A DNA stretch of 64,000 bases from positions 68,103,917 through 68,167,916 of the forward strand of contig CM049319.1 of the NCBI GenBank assembly GCA_026874595.1, written 5' to 3'. Below, piece by piece: positions 1-63,653 of the stretch (positions are counted from its first letter, which is position 1; each line of letters begins with the position of its first letter). The DNA is from Sipunculus nudus (Eukaryota; Annelida; Sipuncula; Golfingiida; Sipunculidae). The notes beneath the pieces were generated by a model, which was not told the origin of the DNA, searched no databases, and saw nothing but the letters and a program-made list of their open reading frames with translations. Position numbers and translations under genes: made by a program.

Positions 1-3000
1 AAGTGAACCTCGTATATGAACCGTTCAGCCATGTAGAGCATAGGAGAGTGAACCTCGTATGTGAACCGTGCCGCCGTGTAGAGCATAGGAGAGTGAACCT
101 CGTATGTGAACCGTGCCGCCGTGTAGAGGATATGAAAGTGAACCTCGTTGTTGAACCGTGCCACCGAGTAGAGGATATGAAAGTGAACCTCGTATGTGAA
201 CCGTGCCGCCGTGTAGAGGATATGAAAGTGAACCTCGTATATGAACCGTGCCACCGAGTAGAGCATAGGAAAGTGAATCTCGTTGTTGAACCGTGCCGCC
301 GTGTAGAGGATATGAAAGTGAACCTCGTATGTGAACCGTGCCACCGAGTAGAGCATAGGAAAGTCAATCTCGTTGTTGAACCGTGCCACCCTGTCGAGCA
401 TAGGAAAGTGAACCTCGTATATGAACCGTTCCGCCGAGTAGAGCATAGGAAAGTGAACCTCGTATATGAACCGTGCCACCGTGTAGAGCATAGAAAAGTG
501 AAAATCGTTGTTGAACCGTGCCACCGAGTAGAGGATATGAAAGTGAACCTCGTATTTGAACCGTGCCGCCGTGTAGAGGATATGAAAGTGAACCTCGCAT
601 GTGAACCGTGCCGCCGTGTAGAGGATATGAAAGTGAACCTCGTATATGAACCGTGCCACCGAGTAGAGCATAGGAAAGTGAACCTCGTATATGAACCGTT
701 CAGCCATGTAGAGCATAGGAGAGTGAACCTCGTATGTGAACCGTGCCGCCGTGTAGAGCATAGGAAAGTGAACCTCGTATATGAACCGTTCAGCCATGTA
801 GAGCATAGGAGGGTGAACCTCGTATGTGAACCGTGCCGCCGTGTAGAGCATAGGAAAGTGAACCTCGTTTTTGAACCGTGCCACCGTGTAGAGCAAAGGA
901 AAGTGAACCTCGTATATGAACCGTGCCACCGTGTAGAGCATAGGAAAGTGAACCTCGTATATGAACCGTGCCACCGTGTAGAGCATAGGAAAGTGAACCT
1001 CGTATATGAACCGTGCCACCCTGTAGAGCATAGGAAAGTGAACCTCGTATATGAACCGTGCCACCCTGTAGAGCATAGGAAAGTGAACCTCGTATATGAA
1101 CCGTTCCGCCGAGTAGAGCATAGGAAAGTGAACCTCGTATATGAACCGTGCCACCGTGTAGAGCATAGGAAAGTGAACCTCGTTGTTGAACCGTGCCACC
1201 GAGTAGAGCATAGGAAAGTGAACCTCGTTCTCAAACCATTCCGCCATGTAAGGGAGAGGACACTGAATCTGGTTGTCGAACCGTGCCACCGAGTGGAGCA
1301 TAGGAAAGTGAATCTCGTTGTTGAACAGTGCCGCCGTGTAGAGGATATGAAAGTGAACCTCGTATATGAACCGTGCCACCGAGTAGAGCATAGGAGAGTG
1401 AATCTCGTTGTTGAACCGTGCCGCCGTGTAGAGGATATGAAAGTGAACCTCGTATGTGAACCGTGCCGCCGTGTAGAGGATATGAAAGTGAACCTCGTAT
1501 ATGAACCGTGCCACCGAGTAGAGCATAGGAAAGTGAACCTCGTATATGAACCGTTCAGCCATGTAGAGCATAGGAGAGTGAACCTCGTATGTGAACCGTG
1601 CCGCCCTGTAGAGCATAGGAAAGTGAACCTCGTATATGAACCGTTCAGCCATGTTGAGCATAGGAGAGTGAACCTCGTATGTGAACCGTGCCGCCGTGTA
1701 GAGCTTAGGAAAGTGAACCTCGTATATGAACCGTTCAGCCATGAAGAGCATAGGAAAGTGAACCTCGTATATGAACAGTGCCGCCATGTGAATCATAGGA
1801 AAGTGAACCTCGTATATTAACCGTTTCGCCGAGTAGAGCATAGGAAAATCTCGTATATGAACCGTGCCACCGTGTAGAGCATAGGAAAGTGAACCTCGTT
1901 GTTGAACCGTGCCACCCTGTAGAGCATAGGAAAGTGAACCTCGTATATGAACCGTTCCGCCGAATAGAGCATAGGAAAGTGAACCTCGTATATGAACCCT
2001 GCCACCGTGTAGAGCATAGGAAAGTGAACCTCGTTGTTGAACCGTGCCACCCTGTAGAGCATAGGAAAGTGAACCTCGTTGTTGAACCGTGCCACCGTGT
2101 AGAGCATATGAAAGTGAACCTCGTATATGAACCGTGCCACCCTGTAGAGCATAGGAAAATGAACCTCGTATAAGAACCGTGCCACCGAGTAGAGCATAGG
2201 AAAGTGAACCTCGTATATGAACCGTTCAGCCATGTAGAGCATAGGAGAGTGAACCTCGTATGTGAACCGTGCCGCCGTGTAGAGCATAGGAAAGTGAACC
2301 TCGTATATGAACCGTTCAGCCATGTAGAGCATAGGAGAGTGAACCTCGTATATGAACCGTTCCGCCGGGTAGAGCATAGGAAAGTGAACCTCGTATATGA
2401 ACCGTGCCACCGTGTAGAGCATAGGAAAGTGAACCTCGTTGTTGAACCGTGCCACCGAGTAGAGCATAGGAAAGTGAACCTCGTTCTCAAACCATTCCGC
2501 CATGTAAGGCAGAGGACACTGAATCTGGTTGTCGAACTGTGCCACCGAGTGGAGCATGGGAAAGTGAATCTCGTTGTTGAACCGTGCCGCCGTGTAGAGG
2601 ATATGAAAGTGAACCTCGTATATGAAGCATGCCACCGAGTAGAGCATAGGAGAGTGAATCTCGTTGTTGAACCGTGCCGCCGTGTAGAGGATATGAAAGT
2701 GAATCTCGTTGTTGAACCGTGCCGCCGTGTAGAGCATAGGAAAGTCAATCTCGTTGTTGAACCGTGCCACCCTGTCGAGCATAGGAAAGTGAACCTCGTA
2801 TATGAACCGTTCCGCCGAGTAGAGCATAGGAAAGTGAACCTCGTATATGAACCGTGCCACCGTGTAGAGCATAGGAAAGTGAAAATCGTTGTTGAACCGT
2901 GCCACCGAGTAGAGGATATGAAAGTGAACCTCGTATGTGAACCGTGCCGCCGTGTAGAGGATATGAAAGTGAACCTCGCATGTGAACCGTGCCGCCGTGT

Positions 3001-6000
3001 AGAGGATATGAAAGTGAACCTCGTATATGAACCGTGCCACCGAGTAGAGCATAGGAAAGTGAACCTCGTATATGAACCGTTCAGCCATGTAGAGCATAGG
3101 AGAGTGAACCTCGTATGTGAACCGTGCCGCCGTGTAGAGCATAGGAAAGTGAACCTCGTATATGAACCGTTCAGCCATGTAGAGCATAGGAGGGTGAACC
3201 TCGTATGTGAACCGTGCCGCCGTGTAGAGCATAGGAAAGTGAACCTCGTATATGAACCGTTCAGCCATGTAGAGCATAGGAGAGTGAACCTCGTATGTGA
3301 ACCGTGCCGCCGTGTAGAGCATGGGAGAGTGAACCTCGTATGTAAACCGTGCCGCCGTGTAGAGCATGGGAGAGTGAACCTCGTTGTTGAACCGTGCCAC
3401 CCTGTAGAGCATAGGAAAGTTAACCTCGTATATGAACCGTTCCGCCGAGTAGAGCATAGGAAAGTGAACCTCGTATATGAACCGTGCCACCGTGTAGAGC
3501 ATAGGAAATTGAACCTCGTTTTTGAACCGTGCCACCGTGTAGAGCAAAGGAAAGTGAACCTCGTATATGAACCGTGCCACCGAGTAGAGCATAGGAAAGT
3601 GAACCTCGTATATGAACCGTGCCGCCGTGTAGAGCATAGGAAAGTGAACCTCGTATATGAACCGTGCCACCGAGTAGAGCATAGGAAAGTGAACCTCGTA
3701 TATGAACCGTGCCACCGAGTAGAGCATAGGAAAGTGAATCTCGTTGTTGAACCGTGCCGCCGTGTAGAGGATATGAAAGTGAACCTCGTATATGAACCGT
3801 GCCACCGAGTAGAGCATAGGAAAGTGAACCTCGTATATGAACCGTTCAGCCATGTAGAGCATAGGAGAGTGAACCTCGTATGTGAACCGTGCCGCCGTGT
3901 AGAGCATAGGAAAGTGAACCTCGTATATGAACCGTTCAGCCATGTAGAGCATAGGAGGGTGAACCTCGTATGTGAACCGTGCCGCCGTGTAGAGCATAGG
4001 AAAGTGAACCTCGTTTTTGAACCGTGCTACCGTGTAGAGCAAAGGAAAGTGAACCTCGTATATGAACCGTGCCACCGTGTAGAGCATAGGAAAGTGAACC
4101 TCGTATATGAACCGTGCCACCGTGTAGAGCATAGGAAAGTGAACCTCGTATATGAACCGTGCCACCCTGTAGAGCATAGGAAAGTGAACCTCGTATATGA
4201 ACCGTGCCACCCTGTAGAGCATAGGAAAGTGAACCTCGTATATGAACCGTTCCGCCGAGTAGAGCATAGGAAAGTGAACCTCGTATATGAACCGTGCCAC
4301 CGTGTAGAGCATAGGAAAGTGAACCTCGTTGTTGAACCGTGCCACCGAGTAGAGCATAGGAAAGTGAACCTCGTTCTCAAACCATTCCGCCATGTAAGGC
4401 AGAGGACACTGAATCTGGTTGTCGAACCGTGCCACCGAGTGGAGCATAGGAAAGTGAATCTCGTTGTTGAACAGTGCCGCCGTGTAGAGGATATGAAAGT
4501 GAACCTCGTATATGAACCGTGCCACCGAGTAGAGCATAGGAGAGTGAATCTCGTTGTTGAACCGTGCCGCCGTGTAGAGGATATGAAAGTGAACCTCGTA
4601 TGTGAACCGTGCCGCCGTGTAGAGGATATGAAAGTGAACCTCGTATATGAACCGTGCCACCGAGTAGAGCATAGGAAAGTGAACCTCGTATATGAACCGT
4701 TCAGCCATGTAGAGCATAGGAGAGTGAACCTCGTATGTGAACCGTGCCGCCCTGTAGAGCATAGGAAAGTGAACCTCGTATATGAACCGTTCAGCCATGT
4801 TGAGCATAGGAGAGTGAACCTCGTATGTGAACCGTGCCGCCGTGTAGAGCATAGGAAAGTGAACCTCGTATATGAACCGTTCAGCCATGAAGAGCACAGG
4901 AAAGTGAACCTCGTATATGAACAGTGCCGCCATGTGAATCATAGGAAAGTGAACCTCGTATATTAACCGTTTCGCCGAGTAGAGCATAGGAAAGTGAACC
5001 TCGTATATGAACCGTGCCACCGTGTAGAGCATAGGAAAGTGAACCTCGTTGTTGAACCGTGCCACCCTGTAGAGCATAGGAAAGTGAACCTCGTATATGA
5101 ACCGTTCCGCCGAATAGAGCATAGGAAAGTGAACCTCGTATATGAACCCTGCCACCGTGTAGAGCATAGGAAAGTGAACCTCGTTGTTGAACCGTGCCAC
5201 CCTGTAGAGCATAGGAAAGTGAACCTCGTTGTTGAACCGTGCCACCGTGTAGAGCATATGAAAGTGAACCTCGTATTTGAACCGTGCCACCCTGTAGAGC
5301 ATAGGAAAATGAACCTCGTATAAGAACCGTGCCACCGAGTAGAGCATAGGAAAGTGAACCTCGTATATGAACCGTTCAGCCATGTAGAGCATAGGAGAGT
5401 GAACCTCGTATGTGAACCGTGCCGCCGTGTAGAGCATAGGAAAGTGAACCTCGTATATGAACCGTTCAGCCATGTAGAGCATAGGAGAGTGAACCTCGTA
5501 TATGAACCGTTCCGCCGGGTAGAGCATAGGAAAGTGAACCTCGTATATGAACCGTGCCACCGTGTAGAGCATAGGAAAGTGAACCTCGTTGTTGAACCGT
5601 GCCACCGAGTAGAGCATAGGAAAGTGAACCTCGTTCTCAAACCATTCCGCCATGTAAGGCAGAGGACACTGAATCTGGTTGTCGAACTGTGCCACCGAGT
5701 GGAGCATGGGAAAGTGAATCTCGTTGTTGAACCGTGCCGCCGTGTAGAGGATATGAAAGTGAACCTCGTATATGAAGCGTGCCACCGAGTAGAGCATAGG
5801 AGAGTGAATCTCGTTGTTGAACCGTGCCGCCGTGTAGAGGATATGAAAGTGAATCTCGTTGTTGAACCGTGCCGCCGTGTAGAGCATAGGAAAGTCAATC
5901 TCGTTGTTGAACCGTGCCACCCTGTCGAGCATAGGAAAGTGAACCTCGTATATGAACCGTTCCGCCGAGTAGAGCATAGGAAAGTGAACCTCGTGTATGA

Positions 6001-8296
6001 ACCGTGCCACCGTGTAGAGCATAGGAAAGTGAAAATCGTTGTTGAACCGTGCCACCGAGTAGAGGATATGAAAGTGAACCTCGTATGTGAACCGTGCCGC
6101 CGTGTAGAGGATATGAAAGTGAACCTCGCATGTGAACCGTGCCGCCGTGTAGAGGATATGAAAGTGAACCTCGTATATTAACCGTGCCACCGAGTAGAGC
6201 ATAGGAAAGTGAACCTCGTATATGAACCGTTCAGCCATGTAGAGCATAGGAGAGTGAACCTCGTATGTGAACCGTGCCGCCGTGTAGAGCATAGGAAAGT
6301 GAACCTCGTATATGAACCGTTCAGCCATGTAGAGCATAGGAGGGTGAACCTCGTATGTGAACCGTGCCGCCGTGTAGAGCATAGGAAAGTGAACCTCGTA
6401 TATGAACCGTTCAGCCATGTAGAGCATAGGAGAGTGAACCTCGTATGTGAACCGTGCCGCCGTGTAGAGCATGGGAGAGTGAACCTCGTATGTAAACCGT
6501 GCCGCCGTGTAGAGCATGGGAGAGTGAACCTCGTTGTTGAACCGTGCCACCCTGTAGAGCATAGGAAAGTTAACCTCGTATATGAACCGTTCCGCCGAGT
6601 AGAGCATAGGAAAGTGAACCTCGTATATGAACCGTGCCACCGTGTAGAGCATAGGAAAGTGAACCTCGTATATGAACCGTGCCACCCTGTAGAGCATAGG
6701 AAAGTGAACCTCGTATATGAACCGTGCCAGCCTGTAGAGCATAGGAAAGTGAACCTCGTATATGAACCGTTCCGCCGAGTAGAGCATAGGAAAGTGAACC
6801 TCGTATATGAACCGTGCCACCGTGTAGAGCATAGGAAAGTGAACCTCGTTGTTGAACCGTGCCACCGAGTAGAGCATAGGAAAGTGAACCTCGTTCTCAA
6901 ACCATTCCGCCATGTAAGGCAGAGGACACTGAATCTGGTTGTCGAACCGTGCCACCGAGTGGAGCATAGGAAAGTGAATCTCGTTGTTGAACAGTGCCGC
7001 CGTGTAGAGGATATGAAAGTGAACCTCGTATATGAACCGTGCCACCGAGTAGAGCATAGGAGAGTGAATCTCGTTGTTGAACCGTGCCGCCGTGTAGAGG
7101 ATATGAAAGTGAACCTCGTATGTGAACCGTGCCGCCGTGTAGAGGATATGAAAGTGAACCTCGTATATGAACCGTGCCACCGAGTAGAGCATAGGAAAGT
7201 GAACCTCGTATATGAACCGTTCAGCCATGTAGAGCATAGGAGAGTGAACCTCGTATGTGAACCGTGCCGCCGTGTAGAGCATAGGAAAGTGAACCTCGTA
7301 TATGAACCGTTCACCAATGTAGAGCATAGGAGAGGGAACCTCGTATATGAACCGGGCCGCCATGTAGAGATTAGGAAAGTGAACCTCGTATATGAACCGT
7401 TCCGCCGAGTAGAGCATAGGAAAGTGAACCTCGTATATGAACCGTGCCACCGTGTAGAGCATAGGAAAGTGAACCTCGTATATGAACCGTGCCACCCTGT
7501 AGAGCATAGGAAAGTGAACCTCGTATATGAACCGTGCCACCCTGTAGAGCATAGGAAAGTGAACCTCGTATATGAACCGTTCCGCCGAGTAGAGCATAGG
7601 AAAGTGAACCTCGTATATGAACCGTGCCACCGTGTAGAGCATAGGAAAGTGAACCTCGTTGTTGAACCGTGCCACCGAGTAGAGCATAGGAAAGTGAACC
7701 TCGTTCTCAAACCATTCCGCCATGTAAGGCAAAGGACACTGATTCTGGTTGTCGAACCGTGCCACCGAGTGGAGCATAGGAAAGTGAATCTCGTTGTTGA
7801 ACCGTGCCGCCGTGTAGAGGATATGAAAGTGAACCTCGTATATGAACCGTGCCACCGAGTAGAGCATAGGAGAGTGAATCTCGTTGTTGAACCGTGCCGC
7901 CGTGTAGAGGATATGAAAGTGAACCTCGTATGTGAACCGTGCCGCCGTGTAGAGGATATGAAAGTGAACCTCGTATATGAACCGTGCCACCGAGTAGAGC
8001 ATAGGAAAGTGAACCTCGTATATGAACCGTTCAGCCATGTAGAGCATAGGAGAGTGAACCTCGTATGTGAACCGTGCCGCCGTGTAGAGCATAGGAAAGT
8101 GAACCTCGTATATGAACCGTTCAGCCATGTAGAGCATAGGAGAGTGAACCTCGTATGTGAACCGTGCCGCCGTGTAGAGCATAGGAAAGTGAACCTCGTA
8201 TATGAACCGTTCAGCCATGAAGAGCATAGGAGAGTGAACCTCGTATATGAACAGTGCCGCCATGTGAATCATAGGAAAGTGAACCTCGTATATTAA
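1..8296. repeat. Array segment X: 70-unit (3,150-bp) higher-order repeat
   Basis: Diagnostic variants recur at an offset of 3,150 bp, which is 70 units. Examples are marker units at 2483 and 5633, and the AAAGTCAATCTCG variant at about 2742 and 5892. Marker units at 1227 and 4373 are 3,146 apart because one unit near 1847 has lost 4 bp. Markers at 4373, 5633 and 6893 are spaced 1,260 bp, which is 28 units. The later copy lacks 14 units, since the next marker comes at 6893 and not at 7523. A fragment of the same type reappears as X' at 23187-26514. Confidence 0.85.
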
Positions 8297-9688: not shown

Positions 9689-12600
9689 ACCATTCCGCCA
9701 TGTAAGGCAAAGGACACTGATTCTGGTTGTCGAACCGTGCCACCGAGTGGAGCATAGGAAAGTGAATCTCGTTGTTGAACCGTGCCGCCGTGTAGAGGAT
9801 ATGAAAGTGAACCTCGTATATGAACCGTGCCACCGAGTAGAGCATAGGAGAGTGAATCTCGTTGTTGAACCGTGCCGCCGTGTAGAGGATATGAAAGTGA
9901 ACCTCGTATGTGAACCGTGCCGCCGTGTAGAGGATATGAAAGTGAACCTCGTATATGAACCGTGCCACCGAGTAGAGCATAGGAAAGTGAACCTCGTATA
10001 TGAACCGTTCAGCCATGTAGAGCATAGGAGAGTGAACCTCGTATGTGAACCGTTCAGCCATGTAGAGCATAGGAGAGTGAACCTCGTATGTGAACCGTGC
10101 CGCCGTGTAGAGCATAGGAAAGTGAACCTCGTATATGAACCGTTCAGCCATGAAGAGCATAGGAGAGTGAACCTCGTATATGAACCGTGCCGCCATGTAG
10201 AGCATAGGAAAGTGAACCTCGTATATTAACCGTTCCGCCGAGTAGAGCATAGGAAAGTGAACCTCGTATATGAACCGTGCCACCGTGTAGAGCATAGGAA
10301 AGTGAACCTCGTTGTTGAACCGTGCCACCCTGTAGAGCATAGGAAAGTGAACCTCGTATATGAACCGTTCCGCCGAATAGAGCATAGGAAAGTGAACCTC
10401 GTATATGAACCGTGCCACCGTGTAGAGCATAGGAAAGTGAACCTCGTTGTTGAACCGTGCCACCCTGTAGAGCATAGGAAAGTGAACCTCGTATGTGAAC
10501 CTTTCCGCCGTGTAGAGCATAGGAAAGTGAACCTCGTATATGAACCGTTCACCAATGTAGAGCATAGGAGAGTGAACCTCGTATATGAACCGTGCCGCCA
10601 TGTAGAGATTAGGAAAGTGAACCTCGTATATGAACCGTTCCGCCGAGTAGAGCATAGGAAAGTGAACCTCGTATATGAACCGTGCCACCGTGTAGAGCAT
10701 AGGAAAGTGAACCTCGTATATGAACCGTGCCACCCTGTAGAGCATAGGAAAGTGAACCTCGTATATGAACCGTGCCACCCTGTAGAGCATAGGAAAGTGA
10801 ACCTCGTATATGAACCGTTCCGCCGAGTAGAGCATAGGAAAGTGAACCTCGTATATGAACCGTGCCACCGTGTAGAGCATAGGAAAGTGAACCTCGTTGT
10901 TGAACCGTGCCACCGAGTAGAGCATAGGAAAGTGAACCTCGTTCTCAAACCATTCCGCCATGTAAGGCAAAGGACACTGATTCTGGTTGTCGAACCGTGC
11001 CACCGAGTGGAGCATAGGAAAGTGAATCTCGTTGTTGAACCGTGCCGCCGTGTAGAGGATATGAAATTCCTCGTATATGAACCGTGCCACCGAGTAGAGC
11101 ATAGGAGAGTGAATCTCGTTGTTGAACCGTGCCGCCGTGTAGAGGATATGAAAGTGAACCTCGTATGTGAACCGTGCCGCCGTGTAGAGGATATGAAAGT
11201 GAACCTCGTATATGAACCGTGCCACCGAGTAGAGCATAGGAAAGTGAACCTCGTATATGAACCGTTCAGCCATGTAGAGCATAGGAGAGTGAACCTCGTA
11301 TGTGAACCGTGCCGCCCTGTAGAGCATAGGAAAGTGAACCTCGTATATGAACCGTTCAGCCATGTAGAGCATAGGAGAGTGAACCTCGTATGTGAACCGT
11401 GCCGCCGTGTAGAGCATAGGAAAGTGAACCTCGTATATGAACCGTTCAGCCATGAAGAGCATAGGAGAGTGAACTTCGTATATGAACCGTGCCGCCATGT
11501 AGAGCATAGGAAAATGAACCTCGTATATTAACCGTTCCGCCGAGTAGAGCATAGGAAAGTGAACCTCGTATATGAACCGTGCCACCGTGTAGAGCATAGG
11601 AAAGTGAACCTCGTTGTTGAACCGTGCCACCCTGTAGAGCATAGGAAAGTGAACCTCGTATATGAACCGTTCCGCCGAATAGAGCATAGGAAAGTGAACC
11701 TCGTATATGAACCGTGCCACCGTGTAGAGCATAGGAAAGTGAACCTCGTTGTTGAACCGTGCCACCCTGTAGAGCATAGGAAAGTGAACCTCGTATGTGA
11801 ACCTTTCCGCCGTGTAGAGCATAGGAAAGTGAACCTCGTTGTTGAACCGTGCCACCGTGTAGAGCATATGAAAGTGAACCTCGTATATGAACCGTGCCAC
11901 CCTGTAGAGCATAGGAAAATGAACCTCGTATAAGAACCGTGCCACCGAGTAGAGCATAGGAAAGTGAACCTCGTATATGAACCGTTCAGCCATGTAGAGC
12001 ATAGGAGAGTGAACCTCGTATGTGAACCGTGCCGCCGTGTAGAGCATAGGAAAGTGAACCTCGTATATGAACCGTTCAGCCATGTAGAGCATAGCAGAGT
12101 GAACCTCGTATGTGAACCGTGCCGCCGTGTAGAGCATAGGAAAGTGAACCTCGTTGTTGAACCGTGCCACCCTGTAGAGCATAGGAAAGTGAACCTCGTA
12201 TATGAACCGTTCCGCCGAGTAGAGCATAGGAAAGTGAACCTCGTATATGAACCGTGCCACCGAGTAGAGCATAGGAAAGTGAACCTCGTTGTTGAACCGT
12301 GCCACCGAGTAGAGCATAGGTAAGTGAACCTCGTTCTTAAACCATTCCGCCATGTAAGGCAGAGGACAGTGAATCTGGTTGTCGAACCGTGCCGCCGTGT
12401 AGAGCATAGGAAAGTGAATCTCGTTGTTGAACCGTGCCGCCGTGTAGAGGATATGAAAGTGAACCTCGTATATGAACCGTGCCACCGAGTAGAGCATAGG
12501 AGAGTGAATCTCGTTGTTGAACCGTGCCGCCGTGTAGAGGATATGAAAGTGAACCTCGTATGTGAACCGTGCCACCGTGTAGAGCATAGGAAAGTGAACC

Positions 12601-13826
12601 TCGTATATGAACCGTTCAGCCATGTAGAGCATAGGAGAGTGAACCTCGTATGTGAACCGTGCCACCATGTAGAGCATAGGAAAGTGAACCTCGTATATGA
12701 ACCGTTCAGCCATGAAGAGCATAGGAGAGTGAACCTCGTATATGAACAGTGCCGCCATGTAGAGCATAGGAAAGTGAACCTCGTATATTAACCGTTCCGC
12801 CGAGTAGAGCATAGGAAAGTGAACCTCGTATCTGAACCGTGCCACCGTGTAGAGCATAGGAAAGTGAACCTCGTTGTTGAACCGTGCCACCCTGTAGAGC
12901 ATAGGAAAGTGAACCTCGTATATGAACCGTTCCGCCGAATAGAGCATAGGAAAGTGAACCTCGTATATGAACCCTGCCACCGTGTAGAGCATAGGAAAGT
13001 GAACCTCGTTGTTGAACCGTGCCACCCTGTAGAGCATAGGAGAGTGAACCTCGTATGTGAACCTTGCCGCCGTGTAGAGCATAGGAAATTGAACCTCGTT
13101 GTTGAACCGTGCCACCGTGTAGAGCATAGGAAAGTGAACCTCTTATATGAACCGTGCCACCCTGTAGTGCATAGGAAAATGAACCTCGTATATGAACCGT
13201 GCCACCGAGTAGAGCATAGGAAAGTGAACCTCGTATATGAACCGTTCAGCCATGTAGAGCATAGGAGAGTGAACCTCGTATGTGAACCGTGCCGCCGTGT
13301 AGAGCATAGGAGAGTGAACCTCGTATGTGAACCGTGCCGCCGTGTAGAGGATATTAAAGTGAACCTCGTTGTTGAACCGTGCCACCGAGTAGAGGATATG
13401 AAAGTGAACCTCGTATGTGAACCGTGCCGCCGTGTAGAGGATATGAAAGTGAACCTCGTATATGAACCGTGCCACCGAGTAGAACATAGGAAAGTGAATC
13501 TCGTTGTTGAACCGTGCCGCCGTGTAGAGGATATGAAAGTGAACCTCGTATGTGAACCGTGCCACCGAGTAGAGCATAGGAAAGTCAATCTCGTTGTTGA
13601 ACCGTGCCACCCTGTCGAGCATAGGAAAGTGAACCTCGTATATGAACCGTTCCGCCGAGTAGAGCATAGGAAAGTGAACCTCCTATATGAACCGTGCCAC
13701 CGTGTAGAGCATAGGCAAGTGAACCCCGTATATGAACCGTTCAGCCATGAAGAGCATAGGAGAGTGAACCTCGTATATGAACAGTGCCGCCATGTAGAGC
13801 ATAGGAAAATGAACCTCGTATATTAA
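8297..13826. repeat. Array segment A (first of three copies)
   Basis: This is a block of ordered unit variants that recurs as A' (26515-33124) and A'' (33125-39194). Shared landmarks are a 2-bp deletion (GTGACTCG for GTGAACCTCG) at about 9315, a 3-bp deletion (GAAATTCCTCG) at about 11067, and marker units of the GGCAAAGGACACTGATTCTGG type at 9681 and 10941, followed by a GTTCTTAAACC marker at 12333. Corresponding landmarks lie 18,713 bp further on in A' and 25,368 bp further on in A''. A is shorter than A' and A'' at its start because several units are missing. Confidence 0.85.
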
Positions 13827-16370
13827 CCGTTCCGCCGAGTAGAGCATAGGAAAGTGAACCTCGTATCTGAACCGTGCCACCGTGTAGAGCATAGGAAAGT
13901 GAACCTCGTATATGAACCGTGCCACCCTGTAGAGCATAGGAAAGTGAACCTCGTATATGAACCGTTCCGCCGAATAGAGCATAGGAAAGTGAACCTCGTA
14001 TATGAACCCTGCCACCGTGTAAAGCATAGGAGAGTGAATCTCGTTGTTGAACCGTGCCGCCGTGTAGAGGATATGAAAGTGAACCTCGTATGTGAACCGT
14101 GCCACCCTGTAGAGCATAGGAAAGTGAACCTCGTATGTGAACCTTTCCGCCGTGTAGAGCATAGGAAAGTGAACCTCGTTGTTGAACCGTGCCACCGTGT
14201 AGAGCATATGAAAGTGAACCTCGTATATGAACCGTGCCACCCTGTAGAGCATAGGAAAATGAACCTCGTATAAGAACCGTGCCACCGAGTAGAGCATAGG
14301 AAAGTGAACCTCGTATATGAACCGTTCAGCCATGTAGAGCATAGGAGAGTGAACCTCGTATGTGAACCGTGCCGCCGTGTAGAGCATAGGAAAGTGAACC
14401 TCGTATATGAACCGTTCAGCCATGTAGAGCATAGCAGAGTGAACCTCGTATGTGAACCGTGCCGCCGTGTAGAGCATAGGAAAGTGAACCTCGTTGTTGA
14501 ACCGTGCCACCCTGTAGAGCATAGGAAAGTGAACCTCGTATATGAACCGTTCCGCCGAGTAGAGCATAGGAAAGTGAACCTCGTATATGAACCGTGCCAC
14601 CGAGTAGAGCATAGGAAAGTGAACCTCGTTGTTGAACCGTGCCACCGAGTAGAGCATAGGTAAGTGAACCTCGTTCTTAAACCATTCCGCCATGTAAGGC
14701 AGAGGACAGTGAATCTGGTTGTCGAACCGTGCCGCCGTGTAGAGCATAGGAAAGTGAATCTCGTTGTTGAACCGTGCCGCCGTGTAGAGGATATGAAAGT
14801 GAACCTCGTATATGAACCGTGCCACCGAGTAGAGCATAGGAGAGTGAATCTCGTTGTTGAACCGTGCTGCCGTGTAGAGGATATGAAAGTGAACCTCGTA
14901 TGTGAACCGTGCCACCGTGTAGAGCATAGGAAAGTGAACCTCGTATATGAACCGTTCAGCCATGTAGAGCATAGGAGAGTGAACCTCGTATGTGAACCGT
15001 GCCACCATGTAGAGCATAGGAAAGTGAACCTCGTATATGAACCGTTCAGCCATGAAGAGCATAGGAAAGTGAACCTCGTATATGAACAGTGCCGCCATGT
15101 AGAGCATAGGAAAGTGAACCTCGTATATTAACCGTTCCGCCGAGTAGAGCATAGGAAAGTGAACCTCGTATCTGAACCGTGCCACCGTGTAGAGCATAGG
15201 AAAGTGAACCTCGTTGTTGAACCGTGCCACCCTGTAGAGCATAGGAAAGTGAACCTCGTATATGAACCGTTCCGCCGAATAGAGCATAGGAAAGTGAACC
15301 TCGTATATGAACCCTGCCACCGTGTAGAGCATAGGAAAGTGAACCTCGTTGTTGAACCGTGCCACCCTGTAGAGCATAGGAGAGTGAACCTCGTATGTGA
15401 ACCTTGCCGCCGTGTAGAGCATAGGAAATTGAACCTCGTTGTTGAACCGTGCCACCGTGTAGAGCATAGGAAAGTGAACCTCTTATATGAACCGTGCCAC
15501 CCTGTAGTGCATAGGAAAATGAACCTCGTATATGAACCGTGCCACCGAGTAGAGCATAGGAAAGTGAACCTCGTATATGAACCGTTCAGCCATGTAGAGC
15601 ATAGGAGAGTGAACCTCGTATGTGAACCGTGCCGCCGTGTAGAGCATAGGAGAGTGAACCTCGTATGTGAACCGTGCCGCCGTGTAGAGGATATTAAAGT
15701 GAACCTCGTTGTTGAACCGTGCCACCGAGTAGAGGATATGAAAGTGAACCTCGTATGTGAACCGTGCCGCCGTGTAGAGGATATGAAAGTGAACCTCGTA
15801 TATGAACCGTGCCACCGAGTAGAACATAGGAAAGTGAATCTCGTTGTTGAACCGTGCCGCCGTGTAGAGGATATGAAAGTGAACCTCGTATGTGAACCGT
15901 GCCACCGAGTAGAGCATAGGAAAGTCAATCTCGTTGTTGAACCGTGCCACCCTGTCGAGCATAGGAAAGTGAACCTCGCATATGAACCGTTCCGCCGAGT
16001 AGAGCATAGGAAAGTGAACCTCCTATATGAACCGTGCCACCGTGTAGAGCATAGGCAAGTGAACCCCGTATATGAACCGTTCAGCCATGAAGAGCATAGG
16101 AGAGTGAACCTCGTATATGAACAGTGCCGCCATGTAGAGCATAGGAAAATGAACCTCGTATATTAACCGTTCCGCCGAGTAGAGCATAGGAAAGTGAACC
16201 TCGTATCTGAACCGTGCCACCGTGTAGAGCATAGGAAAGTGAACCTCGTATATGAACCGTGCCACCCTGTAGAGCATAGGAAAGTGAACCTCGTATATGA
16301 ACCGTTCCGCCGAATAGAGCATAGGAAAGTGAACCTCGTATATGAACCCTGCCACCGTGTAAAGCATAGG
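11760..16370. repeat. 2,340-bp (52-unit) recent tandem duplication inside the array
   Basis: The stretch from about 11760 to 14099 is repeated from about 14100 at an offset of 2,340 bp. Marker units at 12333 and 14673 and the TATATTAACC variants at about 12786/15126 and 13821/16161 all keep this spacing. Reading the two copies side by side gives only about one difference per several hundred bases, for example CTCGTATATG at 13636 against CTCGCATATG at 15976. This makes it one of the youngest events in the array. A'' carries a single copy at the matching place, so the duplication came after A and A'' separated, or one copy was lost in A''. Confidence 0.85.
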
Positions 16371-19300
16371 AAAGTGAACCTCGTTGTTGAACCGTGCCAC
16401 CCTGTAGAGCATAGGAGAGTAAACCTCGTATGTGAACCTTGCCGCCGTGTAGAGCATAGGAAAGTGAACCTCGTTGTTGAACCGTGCCACCCTGTAGAGC
16501 ATAGGAGAGTGAACCTCGTATGTGAACCTTGCCGCCGTGTAGAGCATAGGAAAGTGAACCTCGTTGTTGAACCGTGCCACCGTGTAGAGCATAGGAAAGT
16601 GAACCTCTTATATGAACCGTGCCACCCTGTAGAGCATAGGAAAATGAACCTCGTATATGAACCGTGCCACCGAGTAGAGCATAGGAAAGTGAACCTCGTA
16701 TATGAACCGTTCAGCCATGTAGAGCATAGGAGAGTGAACCTCGTATGTGAACCGTGCCGCCGTGTAGAGCATAGGAGAGTGAACCTCGTATGTGAACCGT
16801 GCCGCCGTGTAGAGGATATGAAAGTGAACCTCGTTGTTGAACCGTGCCACCGAGTAGAGGATATGAAAGTGAACCTCGTATGTGAACCGTGCCGCCGTGT
16901 AGAGGATATGAAAGTGAACCTCGTATATGAACCGTGCCACCGAGTAGAGCATAGGAAAGTGAATCTCGTTGTTGAACCGTGCCGCCGTGTAGAGGATATG
17001 AAAGTGAACCTCGTATGTGAACCGTGCCACCGAGTAGAGCATAGGAAAGTCAATCTCGTTGTTGAACCGTGCCACCCTGTCGAGCATAGGAAAGTGAACC
17101 TCGTATATGAACCGTTCCGCCGAGTAGAGCATAGGAAAGTGAACCTCGTATATGAACCGTGCCACCGTGTAGAGCATAGGAAAGTGAAAATCGTTGTTGA
17201 ACCGTGCCACCGAGAAGAGGATATGAAAGTGAACCTCGTATGTGAACCGTGCCGCCGTGTAGAGGATATGAAAGTGAACCTCGCATGTGAACCGTGCCGC
17301 CGTGTAGAGGATATGAAAGTGAACCTCGTATATGAACCGTGCCACCGAGTAGAGCATAGGAAAGTGAACCTCGTATATGAACCGTTCAGCCATGTAGAGC
17401 ATAGGAGAGTGAACCTCGTATGTGAACCGTGCCGCCGTGTAGAGCATAGGAAAGTGAACCTCGTATATGAACCGTTCAGCCATGTAGAGCATAGGAGGGT
17501 GAACCTCGTATGTGAACCGTGCCGCCGTGTAGAGCATAGGAAAGTGAACCTCGTATATGAACCGTTCAGCCATGTAGAGCATAGGAGAGTGAACCTCGTA
17601 TGTGAACCGTGCCGCCGTGTAGAGGATATGAAAGTGAACCTCGTATATGAACCGTGCCACCGAGTAGAGAATAGGAAAGTGAATCTCGTTGTTGAACCGT
17701 GCCGCCGTGTAGAGGATATGAAAGTGAACCTCGTATGTGAACCGTGCCACCGAGTAGAGCATAGGAAAGTCAATCTCGTTGTTGAACCGTGCCACCCTGT
17801 CGAGCATAGGAAAGTGAACCTCGTATATGAACCGTTCCGCCGAGTAGAGCATAGGAAAGTGAACCTCGTATATGAACCGTGCCACCGTGTAGAGCATAGG
17901 AAAGTGAAAATCGTTGTTGAACCGTGCCACCGAGTAGAGGATATGAAAGTGAACCTCGTATGTGAACCGTTCCGCCGTGTAGAGGATATGAAAGTGAACC
18001 TCGCATGTGAACCGTGCCGCCGTGTAGAGGATATGAAAGTGAACCTCGTATATGAACCGTGCCACCGAGTAGAGCATAGGAGAGTGAACCTCGTATATGA
18101 ACCGTTCAGCCATGTAGAGCATAGGAGAGTGAACCTCGTATGTGAACCGTGCCGCCGTGTAGAGCATAGGAAAGTGAACCTCGTATATGAACCATTCAGC
18201 CATGTAGAGCATAGGAGGGTGAACCTCGTATGTGAACCGTGCCGCCGTGTAGAGCATAGGAAAGTGAACCTCGTATATGAACCGTGCCACCGTGTAGAGC
18301 ATAGGAAAGTGAACCTCGTTGTTGAACCGTGCCACCGAGTAGAGCATAGGAAAGTGAACCTCGTTCTCAAACCATTCCGCCATGTAAGGCAGAGGACACT
18401 GAATCTGGTTGTCGAACCGTGCCACCGAGTGGAGCATAGGAAAGTGAATCTCGTTGTTGAACAGTGCCGCCGTGTAGAGGATATGAAAGTGAACCTCGTA
18501 TATGAACCGTGCCACCGAGTAGAGCATAGGAGAGTGAATCTCGTTGTTGAACCGTGCCGCCGTGTAGAGGATATGAAAGTGAACCTCGTATGTGAACCGT
18601 GCCGCCGTGTAGAGGATATGAAAGTGAACCTCGTATATGAACCGTGCCACCGAGTAGAGCATAGGAAAGTGAACCTCGTATATGAACCGTTCAGCCATGT
18701 AGAGCATAGGAGAGTGAACCTCGTATGTGAACCGTGCCGCCGTGTAGAGCATAGGAAAGTGAACCTCGTATATGAACCGTTCAGCCATGTAGAGCATAGG
18801 AGAGTGAACCTCGTATGTGAACCGTGCCGCCGTGTAGAGCATAGGAAAGTGAACCTCGTATATGAACCGTTCAGCCATGAAGAGCATAGGAGAGTGAACC
18901 TAGTATATGAACAGTGCCGCCATGTGAATCATAGGAAAGTGAACCTCGTATATTAACCGTTTCGCCGAGTAGAGCATAGGAAAGTGAACCTCGTATATGA
19001 ACCGTGCCACCGTGTAGAGCATAGGAAAGTGAACCTCGTTGTTGAACCGTGCCACCCTGTAGAGCATAGGAAAGTGAACCTCGTATATGAACCGTTCCGC
19101 CGAATAGAGCATAGGAAAGTGAACCTCGTATATGAACCCTGCCACCGTGTAGAGCATAGGAAAGTAAATCTCGTTGTTGAACAGTGCCGCCGTGTAGAGG
19201 ATATGAAAGTGAACCTCGTATATGAACCGTGCCACCGAGTAGAGCATAGGAGAGTGAACCTCGTTGTTGAACCGTGCCACCGTGTAGAGCATATGAAAGT

Positions 19301-36100: not shown

Positions 36101-39100
36101 CCCTGTAGAGCATAGGAAAGTGAACCTCGTATATGAACCGTGCCACCCTGTAGAGCATAGGAAAGTGAACCTCGTATATGAACCGTTCCGCCGAGTAGAG
36201 CATAGGAAAGTGAACCTCGTATATGAACCGTGCCACCGTGTAGAGCATAGGAAAGTGAACCTCGTTGTTGAACCGTGCCACCGAGTAGAGCATAGGAAAG
36301 TGAACCTCGTTCTCAAACCATTCCGCCATGTAAGGCAAAGGACACTGATTCTGGTTGTCGAACCGTGCCACCGAGTGGAGCATAGGAAAGTGAATCTCGT
36401 TGTTGAACCGTGCCGCCGTGTAGAGGATATGAAATTCCTCGTATATGAACCGTGCCACCGAGTAGAGCATAGGAGAGTGAATCTCGTTGTTGAACCGTGC
36501 CGCCGTGTAGAGGATATGAAAGTGAACCTCGTATGTGAACCGTGCCGCCGTGTAGAGGATATGAAAGTGAACCTCGTATATGAACCGTGCCACCGAGTAG
36601 AGCATAGGAAAGTGAACCTCGTATATGAACCGTTCAGCCATGTAGAGCATAGGAGAGTGAACCTCGTATGTGAACCGTGCCGCCCTGTAGAGCATAGGAA
36701 AGTGAACCTCGTATATGAACCGTTCAGCCATGTAGAGCATAGGAGAGTGAACCTCGTATGTGAACCGTGCCGCCGTGTAGAGCATAGGAAAGTGAACCTC
36801 GTATATGAACCGTTCAGCCATGAAGAGCATAGGAGAGTGAACTTCGTATATGAACCGTGCCGCCATGTAGAGCATAGGAAAATGAACCTCGTATATTAAC
36901 CGTTCCGCCGAGTAGAGCATAGGAAAGTGAACCTCGTATATGAACCGTGCCACCGTGTAGAGCATAGGAAAGTGAACCTCGTTGTTGAACCGTGCCACCC
37001 TGTAGAGCATAGGAAAGTGAACCTCGTATATGAACCGTTCCGCCGAATAGAGCATAGGAAAGTGAACCTCGTATATGAACCGTGCCACCGTGTAGAGCAT
37101 AGGAAAGTGAACCTCGTTGTTGAACCGTGCCACCCTGTAGAGCATAGGAAAGTGAACCTCGTATGTGAACCTTTCCGCCGTGTAGAGCATAGGAAAGTGA
37201 ACCTCGTTGTTGAACCGTGCCACCGTGTAGAGCATATGAAAGTGAACCTCGTATATGAACCGTGCCACCCTGTAGAGCATAGGAAAATGAACCTCGTATA
37301 AGAACCGTGCCACCGAGTAGAGCATAGGAAAGTGAACCTCGTATATGAACCGTTCAGCCATGTAGAGCATAGGAGAGTGAACCTCGTATGTGAACCGTGC
37401 CGCCGTGTAGAGCATAGGAAAGTGAACCTCGTATATGAACCGTTCAGCCATGTAGAGCATAGCAGAGTGAACCTCGTATGTGAACCGTGCCGCCGTGTAG
37501 AGCATAGGAAAGTGAACCTCGTTGTTGAACCGTGCCACCCTGTAGAGCATAGGAAAGTGAACCTCGTATATGAACCGTTCCGTCGAGTAGAGCATAGGAA
37601 AGTGAACCTCGTATATGAACCGTGCCACCGAGTAGAGCATAGGAAAGTGAACCTCGTTGTTGAACCGTGCCACCGAGTAGAGCATAGGTAAGTGAACCTC
37701 GTTCTTAAACCATTCCGCCATGTAAGGCAGAGGACAGTGAATCTGGTTGTCGAACCGTGCCGCCGTGTAGAGCATAGGAAAGTGAATCTCGTTGTTGAAC
37801 CGTGCCGCCGTGTAGAGGATATGAAAGTGAACCTCGTATATGAACCGTGCCACCGAGTAGAGCATAGGAGAGTGAATCTCGTTGTTGAACCGTGCCGCCG
37901 TGTAGAGGATATGAAAGTGAACCTCGTATGTGAACCGTGCCACCGTGTAGAGCATAGGAAAGTGAACCTCGTATATGAACCGTTCAGCCATGTAGAGCAT
38001 AGGAGAGTGAACCTCGTATGTGAACCGTGCCACCGTGTAGAGCATAGGAAAGTGAACCTCGTATATGAACCGTTCAGCCATGAAGAGCATAGGAGAGTGA
38101 ACCTCGTATATGAACAGTGCCGCCATGTAGAGCATAGGAAAGTGAACCTCGTATATTAACCGTTCCGCCGAGTAGAGCATAGGAAAGTGAACCTCGTATC
38201 TGAACCGTGCCACCGTGTAGAGCATAGGAAAGTGAACCTCGTTGTTGAACCGTGCCACCCTGTAGAGCATAGGAAAGTGAACCTCGTATATGAACCGTTC
38301 CGCCGAATAGAGCATAGGAAAGTGAACCTCGTATATGAACCCTGCCACCGTGTAGAGCATAGGAAAGTGAACCTCGTTGTTGAACCGTGCCACCCTGTAG
38401 AGCATAGGAGAGTGAACCTCGTATGTGAACCTTGCCGCCGTGTAGAGCATAGGAAATTGAACCTCGTTGTTGAACCGTGCCACCGTGTAGAGCATAGGAA
38501 AGTGAACCTCTTATATGAACCGTGCCCCCCTGTAGTGCATAGGAAAATGAACCTCGTATATGAACCGTGCCACCGAGTAGAGCATAGGAAAGTGAACCTC
38601 GTATATGAACCGTTCAGCCATGTAGAGCATAGGAGAGTGAACCTCGTATGTGAACCGTGCCGCCGTGTAGAGCATAGGAGAGTGAACCTCGTATGTGAAC
38701 CGTGCCGCCGTGTAGAGGATATTAAAGTGAACCTCGTTGTTGAACCGTGCCACCGAGTAGAGGATATGAAAGTGAACCTCGTATGTGAACCGTGCCGCCT
38801 TGTGGAGGATATGAAAGTGAACCTCGTATATGAACCGTGCCACCGAGTAGAGCATAGGAAAGTGAATCTCGTTGTTGAACCGTGCCGCCGTGTAGAGGAT
38901 ATGAAAGTGAACCTCGTATGTGAACCGTGCCACCGAGTAGAGCATAGGAAAGTCAATCTCGTTGTTGAACCGTGCCACCCTGTCGAGCATAGGAAAGTGA
39001 ACCTCGTATATGAACCGTTCCGCCGAGTAGAGCATAGGAAAGTGAACCTCGTAAATGAACCGTGCCACCGTGTAGAGCATAGGCAAGTGAACCCCGTATA

Positions 39101-39194
39101 TGAACCGTTCAGCCATGAAGAGCATAGGAGAGTGAACCTCGTATATGAACAGTGCCGCCATGTAGAGCATAGGAAAATGAACCTCGTATATTAA
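33125..39194. repeat. Array segment A'' (third copy of A)
   Basis: This is the tandem neighbour of A' at an offset of 6,655 bp. It has one extra 45-bp unit at about 34036-34080, which explains why the offset is 6,610 bp left of that point. It carries the 2-bp deletion at about 34189 and the 3-bp deletion at about 36434. Its last part, to 39194, aligns with the end of A (13826) at an offset of 25,368 bp. A few private changes are visible, such as CAATGGAGAGC at about 34616 and GTAAATGAACC at about 39051. Confidence 0.85.
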
Positions 39195-42100
39195 CCGTTC
39201 CGCCGAGTAGAGCATAGGAAAGTGAACCTCGTATCTGAACCGTGCCACCGTGTAGAGCATAGGAAAGTGAACCTCGTATATGAACCGTGCCACCCTGTAG
39301 AGCATAGGAAAGTGAACCTCGTATATGAACCGTTCCGCCGAATAGAGCATAGGAAAGTGAACCTCGTTGTTGAACCGTGCCACCGTGTAGAGCATAGGAA
39401 AGTGAACCTCTTATATGAACCGTGCCACCCTGTAGAGCATAGGAAAATGAACCTCGTATATGAACCGTGCCACCGAGTAGAGCATAGGAAAGTGAACCTC
39501 GTATATGAACCGTTCAGCCATGTAGAGCATAGGAGAGTGAACCTCGTATGTGAACCGTGCCGCCGTGTAGAGCATAGGAGACTGAACCTCGTATGTGAAC
39601 CGTGCCGCCGTGTAGAGGATATGAAAGTGAACCTCGTTGTTGAACCGTGCCACCGAGTAGAGGATATGAAAGTGAACCTCGTATGTGAACCGTGCCGCCG
39701 TGTAGAGGATATGAAAGTGAACCTCGTATATGAACCGTGCCACCGAGTAGAGCATAGGAAAGTGAATCTCGTTGTTGAACCGTGCCGCCGTGTAGAGGAT
39801 ATGAAAGTGAACCTCGTATGTGAACCGTGCCACCGAGTAGAGCATAGGAAAGTCAATCTCGTTGTTGAACCGTGCCACCCTGTCGAGCATAGGAAAGTGA
39901 ACCTCGTATATGAACCGTTCCGCCGAGTAGAGCATAGGAAAGTGAACCTCGTATATGAACCGTGCCACCGTGTAGAGCATAGGAAAGTGAAAATCGTTGT
40001 TGAACCGTGCCACCGAGTAGAGGATATGAAAGTGAACCTCGTATGTGAACCGTTCCGCCGTGTAGAGGATATGAAAGTGAACCTCGCATGTGAACCGTGC
40101 CGCCGTGTAGAGGATATGAAAGTGAACCTCGTATATGAACCGTGCCACCGAGTAGAGCATAGGAAAGTGAACCTCGTATATGAACCGTTCAGCCATGTAG
40201 AGCATAGGAGAGTGAACCTCGTATGTGAACCGTGCCGCCGTGTAGAGCATAGGAAAGTGAACCTCGTATATGAACCGTTCAGCCATGTAGAGCATAGGAG
40301 GGTGAACCTCGTATGTGAACCGTGCCGCCGTGTAGAGCATAGGAAAGTGAACCTCGTATATGAACCGTGCCACCGTGTAGAGCATAGGAAAGTGAACCTC
40401 GTTGTTGAACCGTGCCACCGAGTAGAGCATAGGAAAGTGAACCTCGTTCTCAAACCATTCCGCCATGTAAGGCAGAGGACACTGAATCTGGTTGTCGAAC
40501 CGTGCCACCGAGTGGAGCATAGGAAAGTGAATCTCGTTGTTGAACAGTGCCGCCGTGTAGAGGATATGAAAGTGAACCTCGTATATGAACCGTGCCACCG
40601 AGTAGAGCATAGGAGAGTGAATCTCGTTGTTGAACCGTGCCGCCGTGTAGAGGATATGAAAGTGAACCTCGTATGTGAACCGTGCCGCCGTGTAGAGGAT
40701 ATGAAAGTGAACCTCGTATATGAACCGTGCCACCGAGTAGAGCATAGGAAAGTGAACCTCGTATATGAACCGTTCAGCCATGTAGAGCATAGGAGAGTGA
40801 ACCTCGTATGTGAACCGTGCCGCCGTGTAGAGCATAGGAAAGTGAACCTCGTATATGAACCGTTCAGCCATGTAGAGCATAGGAGAGTGAACCTCGTATG
40901 TGAACCGTGCCGCCGTGTAGAGCATAGGAAAGTGAACCTCGTATATGAACCGTTCAGCCATGAAGAGCATAGGAGAGTGAACCTCGTATATGAACAGTGC
41001 CGCCATGTGAATCATACGAAAGTGAACCTCGTATATTAACCGTTTCGCCGAGTAGAGCATAGGAAAGTGAACCTCGTATATGAACCGTGCCACCGTGTAG
41101 AGCATAGGAAAGTGAACCTCGTTGTTGAACCGTGCCACCCTGTAGAGCATAGGAAAGTGAACCTCGTATATGAACCGTTCCGCCGAATAGAGCATAGGAA
41201 AGTGAACCTCGTATATGAACCCTGCCACCGTGTAGAGCATAGGAAAGTAAATCTCGTTGTTGAACAGTGCCGCCGTGTAGAGGATATGAAAGTGAACCTC
41301 GTATATGAACCGTGCCACCGAGTAGAGCATAGGAGAGTGAACCTCGTTGTTGAACCGTGCCACCGTGTAGAGCATATGAAAGTGAACCTCGTATATGAAC
41401 CGTGCCACCCTGTAGAGCATAGGAAAATGAACCTCGTATAAGAACCGTGCCACCGAGTAGAGCATAGGAAAGTGAACCTCGTATATGAACCGTTCAGCCA
41501 TGTAGAGCATAGGAGAGTGAACCTCGTATGTGAACCGTGCCGCCGTGTAGAGCATAGGAAAGTGAACCTCGTATATGAACCGTTCAGCCATGTAGAGCAT
41601 AGGAGAGTGAACCTCGTATGTGAACCGTGCCGCCGTGTAGAGGATATGAAAGTGAACCTCGCATGTGAACCGTGCCGCCGTGTAGAGGATATGAAAGTGA
41701 ACCTCGTATATGAACCGTGCCACCGAGTAGAGCATAGGAAAGTGAACCTCGTATATGAACCGTTCAGCCATGTAGAGCATAGGAGAGTGAACCTCGTATG
41801 TGAACCGTGCCGCCGTGTAGAGCATAGGAAAGTAAACCTCGTATATGAACCGTTCAGCCATGTAGAGCATAGGAGGGTGAACCTCGTATGTGAACCGTGC
41901 CGCCGTGTAGAGCATAGGAAAGTGAACCTCGTATATGAACCGTTCAGCCATGTAGAGCATAGGAGAGTGAACCTCGTATGTGAACCGTGCCGCCGTGTAG
42001 AGGATATGAAAGTGAACCTCGTATATGAACCGTGCCACCGAGTAGAGCATAGGAAAGTGAATCTCGTTGTTGAACCGTGCCGCCGTGTAGAGGATATGAA

Positions 42101-54950: not shown

Positions 54951-56225
54951 GTAGAGCATAGGAACGTGAACCTCGTATATGAACCGTTAAGCCATGTAGA
55001 GTATAGGAGTGAACCTCGTATGTGAACCGTGCCGCCGTGTAGAGCATAGGAAAGTGAACCTCGTATATGAACCGTTCAACAATGTAGAGCATAGGAGAGT
55101 GAACCTCGTATATGAACCGTGCCGCCATGTAGAGATTAGGAAAGTGAACCTCGTATATGAACCGTTCCGCCGAGTAGAGCATAGGAAAGTGAACCTCGTA
55201 TATGAACCGTGCCACCGTGTAGAGCATAGGAAAGTGAACCTCGTATATGAACCGTGCCACCCTGTAGAGCATAGGAAAGTGAACCTCGGATATGAAACGT
55301 TCCGCCGAGTAGAGCATAGGAAAGTGAACCTCGTATTTGAAACGTGCCACCGTGTAGAGCATAGGAAAGTGAACCTCGTTGTTGAACCGTGCCACCCTGT
55401 AGAGCATAGGAAAGTGAACCTCGTATATGAACCGTGCCACCGTGTAGAGCATAGGAAAGTGAACCTCGTTGTTGAACCGTGCCACCGAGTAGAGCATAGG
55501 AAAGTGAACCTCGTTCTTAAACCGTTCCGCCTTGTAAGGCAGAGGACAGTGAATCTGGTTGTCGAACCGTGCCGCCGTGTAGAGCATAGGAAAGTGAACC
55601 TCGTATATGAACCGTTCAGCCATGTAGAGCATAGGAGAGTGAACCTCGTATATGAACCGTGCCACCGAGTAGAGCATAGGAAAGTGAATCTCCTTGTTGA
55701 ACCGTGCCACCGAGTAGAGCATAGGAAAGTGAACCTCGTATATGAACCGTTCCGCCGAGTAGAGCATAGGAAAGTGAACCTCGTATATGAACCGTGCCGC
55801 CGTGTAGAGGATATGAAAGTGAACCTCGTATGTGAACCGTGCCGCCGTGTAGAGGATATGAAAGTGAACCTCGTATATGAACCGTGCCACCGAGTAGAGC
55901 ATAGGAAAGTGAACCTCGTATATGAACCGTTCAGCCATGTAGAGCATAGGAGAGTGAACCTCCTATGTGAACCGTGCCGCCCTGTAGAGCATAGGAAAGT
56001 GAACCTCGTATATGAACCGTTCCGCCGAGTAGAGCATAGGAAAGTGAACCTCGTATATGAACCGTGCCACCGTGTAGAGCATGGGAGAGTGAACCTCGTA
56101 TGTGAACCGTGCCGCCGTGTAGAGCATGGGAGAGTGAACCTCGTATGTAAACCGTGCCGCCGTGTAGAGCATAGGAAAGTGAACCTCGTTGATGAAACGT
56201 GCCGCCGTGTAGAACATAAAAAAGT
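54951..56225. repeat. Decayed right edge of the 45-bp array
   Basis: Units stay in 45-bp register, but private changes become frequent. Examples are GGAACGTGAACC (54961), GTTAAGCCATG (54986), a 2-bp loss at about 55007, GTTCAACAATG (55074), GAAACGTTCCGCC (55295), a TTCCGCCTTGTAAGG marker (55513), CTCCTTGTTG (55690) and GATGAAACG (56190). The last recognisable unit ends with AGAACATAAAAAAGTG, after which the repeat stops. Accumulation of private changes is expected at the edge of an array that is homogenised mainly in its interior. Confidence 0.85.
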
Positions 56226-57302: not shown

Positions 57303-57359
57303 CTGGCGGAGGTTTGATGTCTTCAACAACATCTTGTTTTTATTTATTACCTCCGCCAG
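57303..57359. repeat. 11-bp perfect inverted repeat (CTGGCGGAGGT / ACCTCCGCCAG)
   Basis: CTGGCGGAGGT at 57303-57313 and ACCTCCGCCAG at 57349-57359 are exact reverse complements separated by 35 bp. The right arm is also the head of the dispersed element copy at 57349. The left arm looks like the tail motif of another copy, so the pair may be two element ends lying side by side, not a functional hairpin. Confidence 0.75.

Positions 57360-63649: not shown

Positions 63650-63653
<4 letters not shown>

Follow-up and report, generated by a model that had tools for sequence, protein, structure and literature searches.

The window analysed here is a stretch of 64,000 nucleotides of the Sipunculus nudus genome (C14:68,103,917-68,167,916, in an assembly of 1.43 Gb and 153 contigs, 17 of chromosome size), and the greater part of it is taken up by a tandem array of a 45-bp unit. 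We consider it likely that the array is an ordinary subtelomeric satellite within a copied chromosome-end block, enlarged by recent large duplications and with no function indicated. According to this explanation, the 45-bp tandem repeat would have been carried inside a block copied among the ends of at least six chromosomes, and its length would have changed independently at each block copy, with the right edge staying recognisable. The nested offsets visible within the array would then be a record of duplication events and not a homogenised higher-order unit. Such an element would represent a new case of an established kind, the subtelomeric satellite on segmental duplications.

A 212-kb array built from duplicated segments

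Tandem Repeats Finder reported window positions 1-56226 as a single unbroken head-to-tail array (period 45, 1,250 copies, 86% match), in agreement with a sequence-only reading of the window that had placed one 45-bp array at 1-56225. When the left neighbour sequence was joined to the window, the array grew to 212,396 bp (C14:67,947,747-68,160,142), and a dot plot that included this neighbour showed that the nested repetition continues there. The window holds the distal quarter, approximately, of this full array. Unit decomposition of the full array yielded 4,722 units and a 5-base end piece. The units comprise 354 distinct strings and are strict in length, as 4,680 are exactly 45 bp long, while the other 42 measure 41-44 bp and none is longer. 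The G+C content of the unit is 49%, and the mean pairwise identity between units was 0.86-0.87 across the array (a difference of about 13%), which falls within the range of 70-90% described for units within the multimer of a higher-order repeat (HOR). The long head-to-tail array of a short unit is also the arrangement seen in subtelomeric satellites. The array features of the window, with duplicated segments found by unit-level matching and all positions in window coordinates, are the following.

1-56226, plus strand: distal 56 kb of the 45-bp array, unit AAGTGAACCTCGTATATGAACCGTGCCGCCGTGTAGAGCATAGGA, extending left to C14:67,947,747
631-3506, plus strand: duplicated segment, copy at 3777-6656, offset 3,146 (70 units, one of only 41 bp), the 3,150-bp level of the earlier reading
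1216-1305, plus strand: example of the marker pair, a GTAAGG unit followed by a CACTGAATCTGGTTGTC unit
10525-13311, plus strand: duplicated segment, copy at 29238-32024, offset 18,713
10525-13986, plus strand: duplicated segment, copy at 35893-39354, offset 25,368
11782-14031, plus strand: duplicated segment, copy at 14122-16371, offset 2,340
27350-32024, plus strand: duplicated segment, copy at 34005-38679, offset 6,655, 99.79% identical
56177-56221, plus strand: right-edge unit, ending in AAAA in place of AGGA, with a counterpart in register at other loci

To analyse the structure, the array was decomposed into units, profiled for exact-unit identity by offset, and examined with word dot plots and shuffles. 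When 900-bp blocks (20 units) were compared with the rest of the array, another copy was present at ≥99.5% identity for 185 of 236 blocks, at 99.0-99.5% for 3 and at <99% for 48. After the unit order had been shuffled, the best identity of such a block never exceeded 0.928 (40 blocks). The contrast between these values and the 86-87% identity between units points to an old diverse array and a recent burst. In the first phase the array would have consisted of units about 13% apart, and in the second it would have been enlarged by tandem duplications of segments of ~1 kb to ~45 kb, the copies of which are 99.8-99.99% alike. The sixteen duplicate pairs examined were 99.79-99.99% identical. The largest copies included two tandem pairs, one of 12.2 kb with a single difference and another of 12.5 kb with two, as well as a 15.9-kb copy that lies 89 kb away and has 9 differences. 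A further level of 43-46 kb, too long to be shown within the window, extends over units 1302 to ~3770. Depending on block size and threshold, the non-redundant sequence in the array amounts to ~31-85 kb.

Identical neighbouring units were rarer than expected by chance (0.014 vs 0.031, z = -7), which argues that the recent growth did not proceed by unit-by-unit slippage. Moreover, units with no more than two occurrences in the array made up 21-30% at its start (first 500 units) and 13-39% at its end (last 222), compared with 0-13% between them, and such an enrichment of rare units at the array ends is the pattern that unequal exchange predicts. The duplications could have arisen by unequal exchange between misaligned sister chromatids or by break-induced replication. 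Alternatively, the array might have grown through rolling-circle replication of excised circles and their reinsertion instead of in-place exchange. Satellite-derived circles have been reported in plants, according to the part of the source consulted (PMC2543021), and reinsertion would easily produce near-identical segments lying 33-89 kb apart, as some do here. However, a reinserted multimeric circle would leave a uniform run of one segment, whereas the segments of at least 200 units were present at two or four places only, and nested in-place duplications also produced distant copies in the simulation described below. Growth through circles consequently appears rather unlikely to us.

Nested repetition without a fixed multimer

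In the window, the profile of identity against offset had peaks at 45 and 90 bp, and the offsets 6,655, 18,713, 24,828 and 25,368 were among the best of their bands. The dimer signal (offset of two units, 90 bp) was real but small (z = 22 against 100 unit-order shuffles of the whole array), and offsets of 25-28 units gave z = 6-13 against the same shuffles. Hence, the dimer level that the sequence-only reading had claimed was recovered, and the levels it had put at 2,340, 3,150 and 6,655 bp, together with the offsets from 18,713 to 25,368 bp, reappeared in the unit-level segment matches. The pairwise offsets on which that reading had based its segment order X-A-Y-X'-A'-A''-Y'-Z are therefore present. 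The level claimed at 1,260/1,305 bp was recovered in part. It corresponds to a diverged marker pair, the first (GTAAGG) unit of which has 113 copies in the full array with a modal spacing of 28 units, but this spacing is irregular (10-229 units) and does not amount to a fixed period.

The same reading had interpreted these levels as a five-level HOR satellite and knew of no described invertebrate case with a 45-bp unit. The repetition does occur at many scales and far beyond chance, but no block of n units is reiterated along the array. When a fixed multimer was sought in 250-unit windows, the best period (3-119 units) kept changing and the top exact-unit identity was 0.52. Because the local best period shifts and the marker pair recurs irregularly, the array has no fixed multimer; no single multimer of fixed length reiterated at >95% identity was detected, and an HOR satellite like alpha satellite is not supported. 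Primate alpha-satellite HORs are similar in that diverged units are combined into longer near-identical copies. They possess, however, a defining multimer with counterpart units >95% identical, as stated in the part of the review consulted (PMC5615363), whereas a reiterated multimer was not found in the C14 array, for which any centromeric role would be hypothetical. As to novelty, no 45-bp satellite case turned up in the open-access literature searched, where unit length was rarely among the search terms, but HORs of invertebrates had already been described. Higher-order satellites are known in beetles and other insects (PMC5615363), including Tribolium madens, in which, as far as the portion of the study consulted goes, composite units were amplified over large parts of the genome (PMC13081366), in contrast to the one end and the irregular nesting observed on C14. 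For the Pacific oyster, the part of the report consulted gives ~40 kb as the longest array of the satellite whose arrays are described as the longest (PMC8268682).

To provide a control for the nested pattern, we ran simulations in which random segments of 1-1000 units were duplicated in tandem, with deletions making up a quarter of the events and unit mutation being rare (12 runs, parameters tuned by hand). Two-unit starting arrays were rejected, as identity came out much too high across the whole range of offsets, and the simulation was therefore begun from a diverse array of 100 distinct units. It reached 4,723 units in ~69 events, and its ranges included the observed values for nine of ten statistics; six other settings fitted less well overall. 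Nested offsets of the same kind were obtained in this way. This cautions that nested offsets alone do not prove a higher-order satellite, since random tandem duplication makes them too.

Reading frames in the window stay open for as many as 2,821 codons (minus strand) and 920 codons (plus strand), which could be taken to mean that the array encodes a giant repeat protein. However, the unit consensus is stop-free in several frames, so that long open frames come free, and the long frames overlap on both strands. In addition, variable columns were seen at all codon positions (by reading), and the 41- and 43-bp units shift the frame. We saw no sign of coding in the long open frames of the window, although no formal test of coding selection was applied, and a protein-coding array seems scarcely conceivable.

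Copies of the chromosome-end block and their unit numbers

Pieces of both flanks of the C14 array have counterparts of 86-95% identity on C6, C10 and C15 and at two places on C4, and two further copies of the right flank only are present on C16; non-homologous ends accordingly carry copies within a common duplicated block. Every block copy found was located ≤1.25 Mb from a scaffold end, and the copies share one orientation with respect to it. On C14 the block extends beyond the distal array edge for no less than 10.5 kb, and on the proximal side a C14 sample taken ~97 kb from the array (67,850,917) resembles, by eye, a C15 sample at 63,850,000. The remaining flank matches were scattered, short and less similar (66-85% identity, or just a few tens of bases long), indicating that the flank also holds common repeats. 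The Pfam search of the right flank, carried out in one plus-strand frame with stops as X, returned 0 families. The block could have spread by ectopic exchange between chromosome ends. The distal part of the window is divided as follows.

56388-58286, plus strand: distal flank, paralogous subtelomeric block, 89-95% identical in pieces to C4 (two), C6, C10, C15 and C16 (two)
58287-61824, no strand assigned: 3.5-kb stretch missing from both C4 block copies
61825-64000, plus strand: paralogous block resumes, ~92% identical to C4, and continues past the window

A separate 102/278-bp tandem repeat was observed at 60869-61844, all but its last 20 bases lying inside the 3.5-kb stretch that is missing from C4.

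To count units elsewhere, the genome was searched with exact and degenerate unit patterns and the genome totals were set against the counts in the locus sequences. A 29-base unit pattern gave 3,766 matches (3,520 forward, 246 reverse), all at six block loci. This pattern detected 3,489 of the 4,722 units on C14 and 29 of the ~72 on C10, with 94 and 152 matches at the two C4 loci and 1 each on C15 and C6; given such partial detection, strongly diverged copies elsewhere could be missed. Within one genome, the same locus is present with 2 units (C6 and C15), ~72 (C10), ~147 and ~209 (C4) and 4,722 units (C14). Altogether, ~5,150 units were counted across the loci, 92% of them on one chromosome end. 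The AAAA right-edge unit is common, in register, to C14, both C4 loci, C6, C10 and C15. This suggests that the tandem repeat is probably older than the spread of the block and that its length changed inside its edges. The origin of a satellite usually has to be conjectured from arrays that are already complete; a length series with a common right-edge unit, by contrast, makes growth, contraction and the step from unit to segment duplication readable from sequence. At C16:63,343,700-63,346,100, a block copy begins at or near the array's right edge and other sequence replaces the left flank and the array, as if the array edge had acted as a recombination breakpoint.

The two C4 loci (158-170 kb and 876-890 kb) have flanks that are 99.86-99.87% identical and arrays of 6,620 and 9,390 bp, and they are perhaps alleles, one of which was misplaced in the assembly. 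An unrooted tree of the left flanks, based on 1,349 gap-free columns of 4,677 with some stretches poorly aligned, placed C14 and C10 in one group (95% identity) and C4, C6 and C15 in another (94%), so that long and short arrays are present in both groups. Identity between the groups was 76-78% in the tree alignment vs 78-95% in the BLAST pieces between C14 and C4. At the same time, the 45-bp consensus was identical in C14, C10 and both C4 arrays, while the flanks differed by ~5% between C14 and C10 and by 5-23% between C14 and C4. For this identity we have no explanation except that the consensus may have kept the ancestral state.

The multi-scale repetition, the strict unit length and the consensus preserved despite diverged flanks would also be expected of a genuine higher-order satellite under selection for a role, alpha-satellite-like, as a centromere or a structural chromosome-end element. 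This appears very unlikely, however. The array has no constant multimer, only 2 units are present on two of the five chromosomes where the unit occurs, and the 29-base pattern had no match outside the block loci. The position near scaffold ends speaks against a centromere, although it is no test of function. Finally, a two-unit strand folded no better than its shuffles under a model limited to hairpins. A selected function is not needed to account for the array and is probably absent.

The closest parallel to a subtelomeric satellite of this type is pCht/StSat of great apes, a satellite of subterminal caps with a 32-bp unit, higher-order blocks and segmental duplications. As described in the portion of the study consulted (PMC12758386), it is likewise a short-unit end satellite on duplications common to non-homologous ends, with lineage bursts. 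It differs in having millions of units on many ends and duplicated spacers of 32-34 kb between arrays; these spacers lie inside the array (PMC12758386), whereas the C14 array lies inside the block. The unit length of 45 bp also sets the C14 array apart from pCht/StSat.

Among human tandem repeats, D4Z4 (4q and 10q) is an array of variable length in a paralogous block common to two ends, with a 3.3-kb unit that encodes DUX4. The C14 array is alike in being a variable array within a paralogous end block, but its unit is only 45 bp long. The human subtelomeric minisatellites CEB1, CEB25 and HRAS1 form arrays far shorter than that on C14. They resemble it as subtelomeric tandem arrays prone to rearrangement; in yeast, however, their instability is tied to G-quadruplexes or Cdc13, according to the part of the source consulted (PMC3486850), whereas the 45-bp unit folds no better than shuffles in the hairpin model.

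Several observations weigh against the explanation by recent duplications within a copied block. The simulation missed the tenth statistic, the top exact identity at offsets of 1300-2500 units, for which the observed value was 0.156 and the simulated maximum 0.153. Three settings with longer minimum segments and a 1000-unit maximum covered this statistic, as did a fourth with more mutation, yet all four gave almost no identical neighbours. The hand-tuned simulation, which lacked the dimer signal, demonstrates that random tandem duplication is sufficient but does not prove it. The identical unit consensus despite diverged flanks could reflect constraint on the unit. The loci with 2 units may be either ancestral or contracted, C6 and C15 grouping with C4 in the unrooted tree. 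As the flank searches scored the best 40 of 3,149 and the best 40 of 88 candidates, further block copies may exist beyond these.

In addition, the 12-kb tandem pairs with their 1 and 2 differences could be assembly errors. More generally, the array length and the largest duplications might have been inflated by an assembler copying near-identical segments, or by joined haplotypes. The very small number of differences in these pairs would agree with this, and so would C4, where a TTAGGG tract at 766.8 kb lies between the two near-identical locus copies, as for a misplaced haplotig. However, usual HiFi reads are longer than 8,405 bp, the longest exact repeat in the whole array (1,707 bp in the window), so that a HiFi assembly could traverse the array, and the 224 kb of joined sequence contains no N. 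We judge inflation of this kind to be improbable.

The chromosome end and a second, 14-bp satellite

The C14 array is located near a chromosome end, its own end lying 108 kb from the end of the scaffold. A TTAGGG tract was found ~35 kb distal of the array (~C14:68,195,2xx-68,195,57x), and the sequence extends past it. The 68 TTAGGG tract starts on chromosome-size scaffolds were all ≤1.1 Mb from an end, with 58 oriented as expected, and a 69th start was on C147. No telomere repeat was present at the sampled scaffold starts and at the C14 end, and the distances to ends are therefore those of the assembly. Together with the sequence past the C14 tract, this suggests that some scaffold ends are probably misjoined or carry internal telomere tracts. 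Some of the TTAGGG tracts lay hundreds of kb inside the ends, for example at 404 kb on C2, 767 kb on C4, 693 kb on C9 and 1.10 Mb on C17, among others, and 10 of the 68 starts were oriented the wrong way, which again suggests misjoined ends or internal tracts.

A second satellite lies proximal of the 45-bp array and is unrelated to it. Its repeat is 14 bp long (CCCTGTATGACAGA-like), and its last motif, at 67,943,417, is separated from the array by 4.3 kb. On C14, samples were positive from 67,863,417 and negative at 67,860,917, which corresponds to ~80 kb if the satellite is continuous between samples. Among the other loci sampled, C15 had the most of it (~10-21 kb), followed by C10 and C6 (3-6 kb) and the 170-kb C4 locus (2.1 kb), so that of all these loci C14 has the longest stretch. 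That both satellites are longest on C14 hints at a regional cause. It is conceivable, if doubtful, that this chromosome end is in a regional state driving tandem-repeat expansion whatever the sequence, while the spacer between the two satellites stayed single-copy. However, C15, which has 2 units of the 45-bp repeat, indicates that the two satellites can vary apart, and its lengths count against a simple coupling. If the regional state were real, the sister loci with their common edge unit, from 2 to 4,722 units, would constitute a natural experiment on satellite birth and growth. Samples of the 14-bp satellite showed local periods of 28, 56, 70 and 84 bp.

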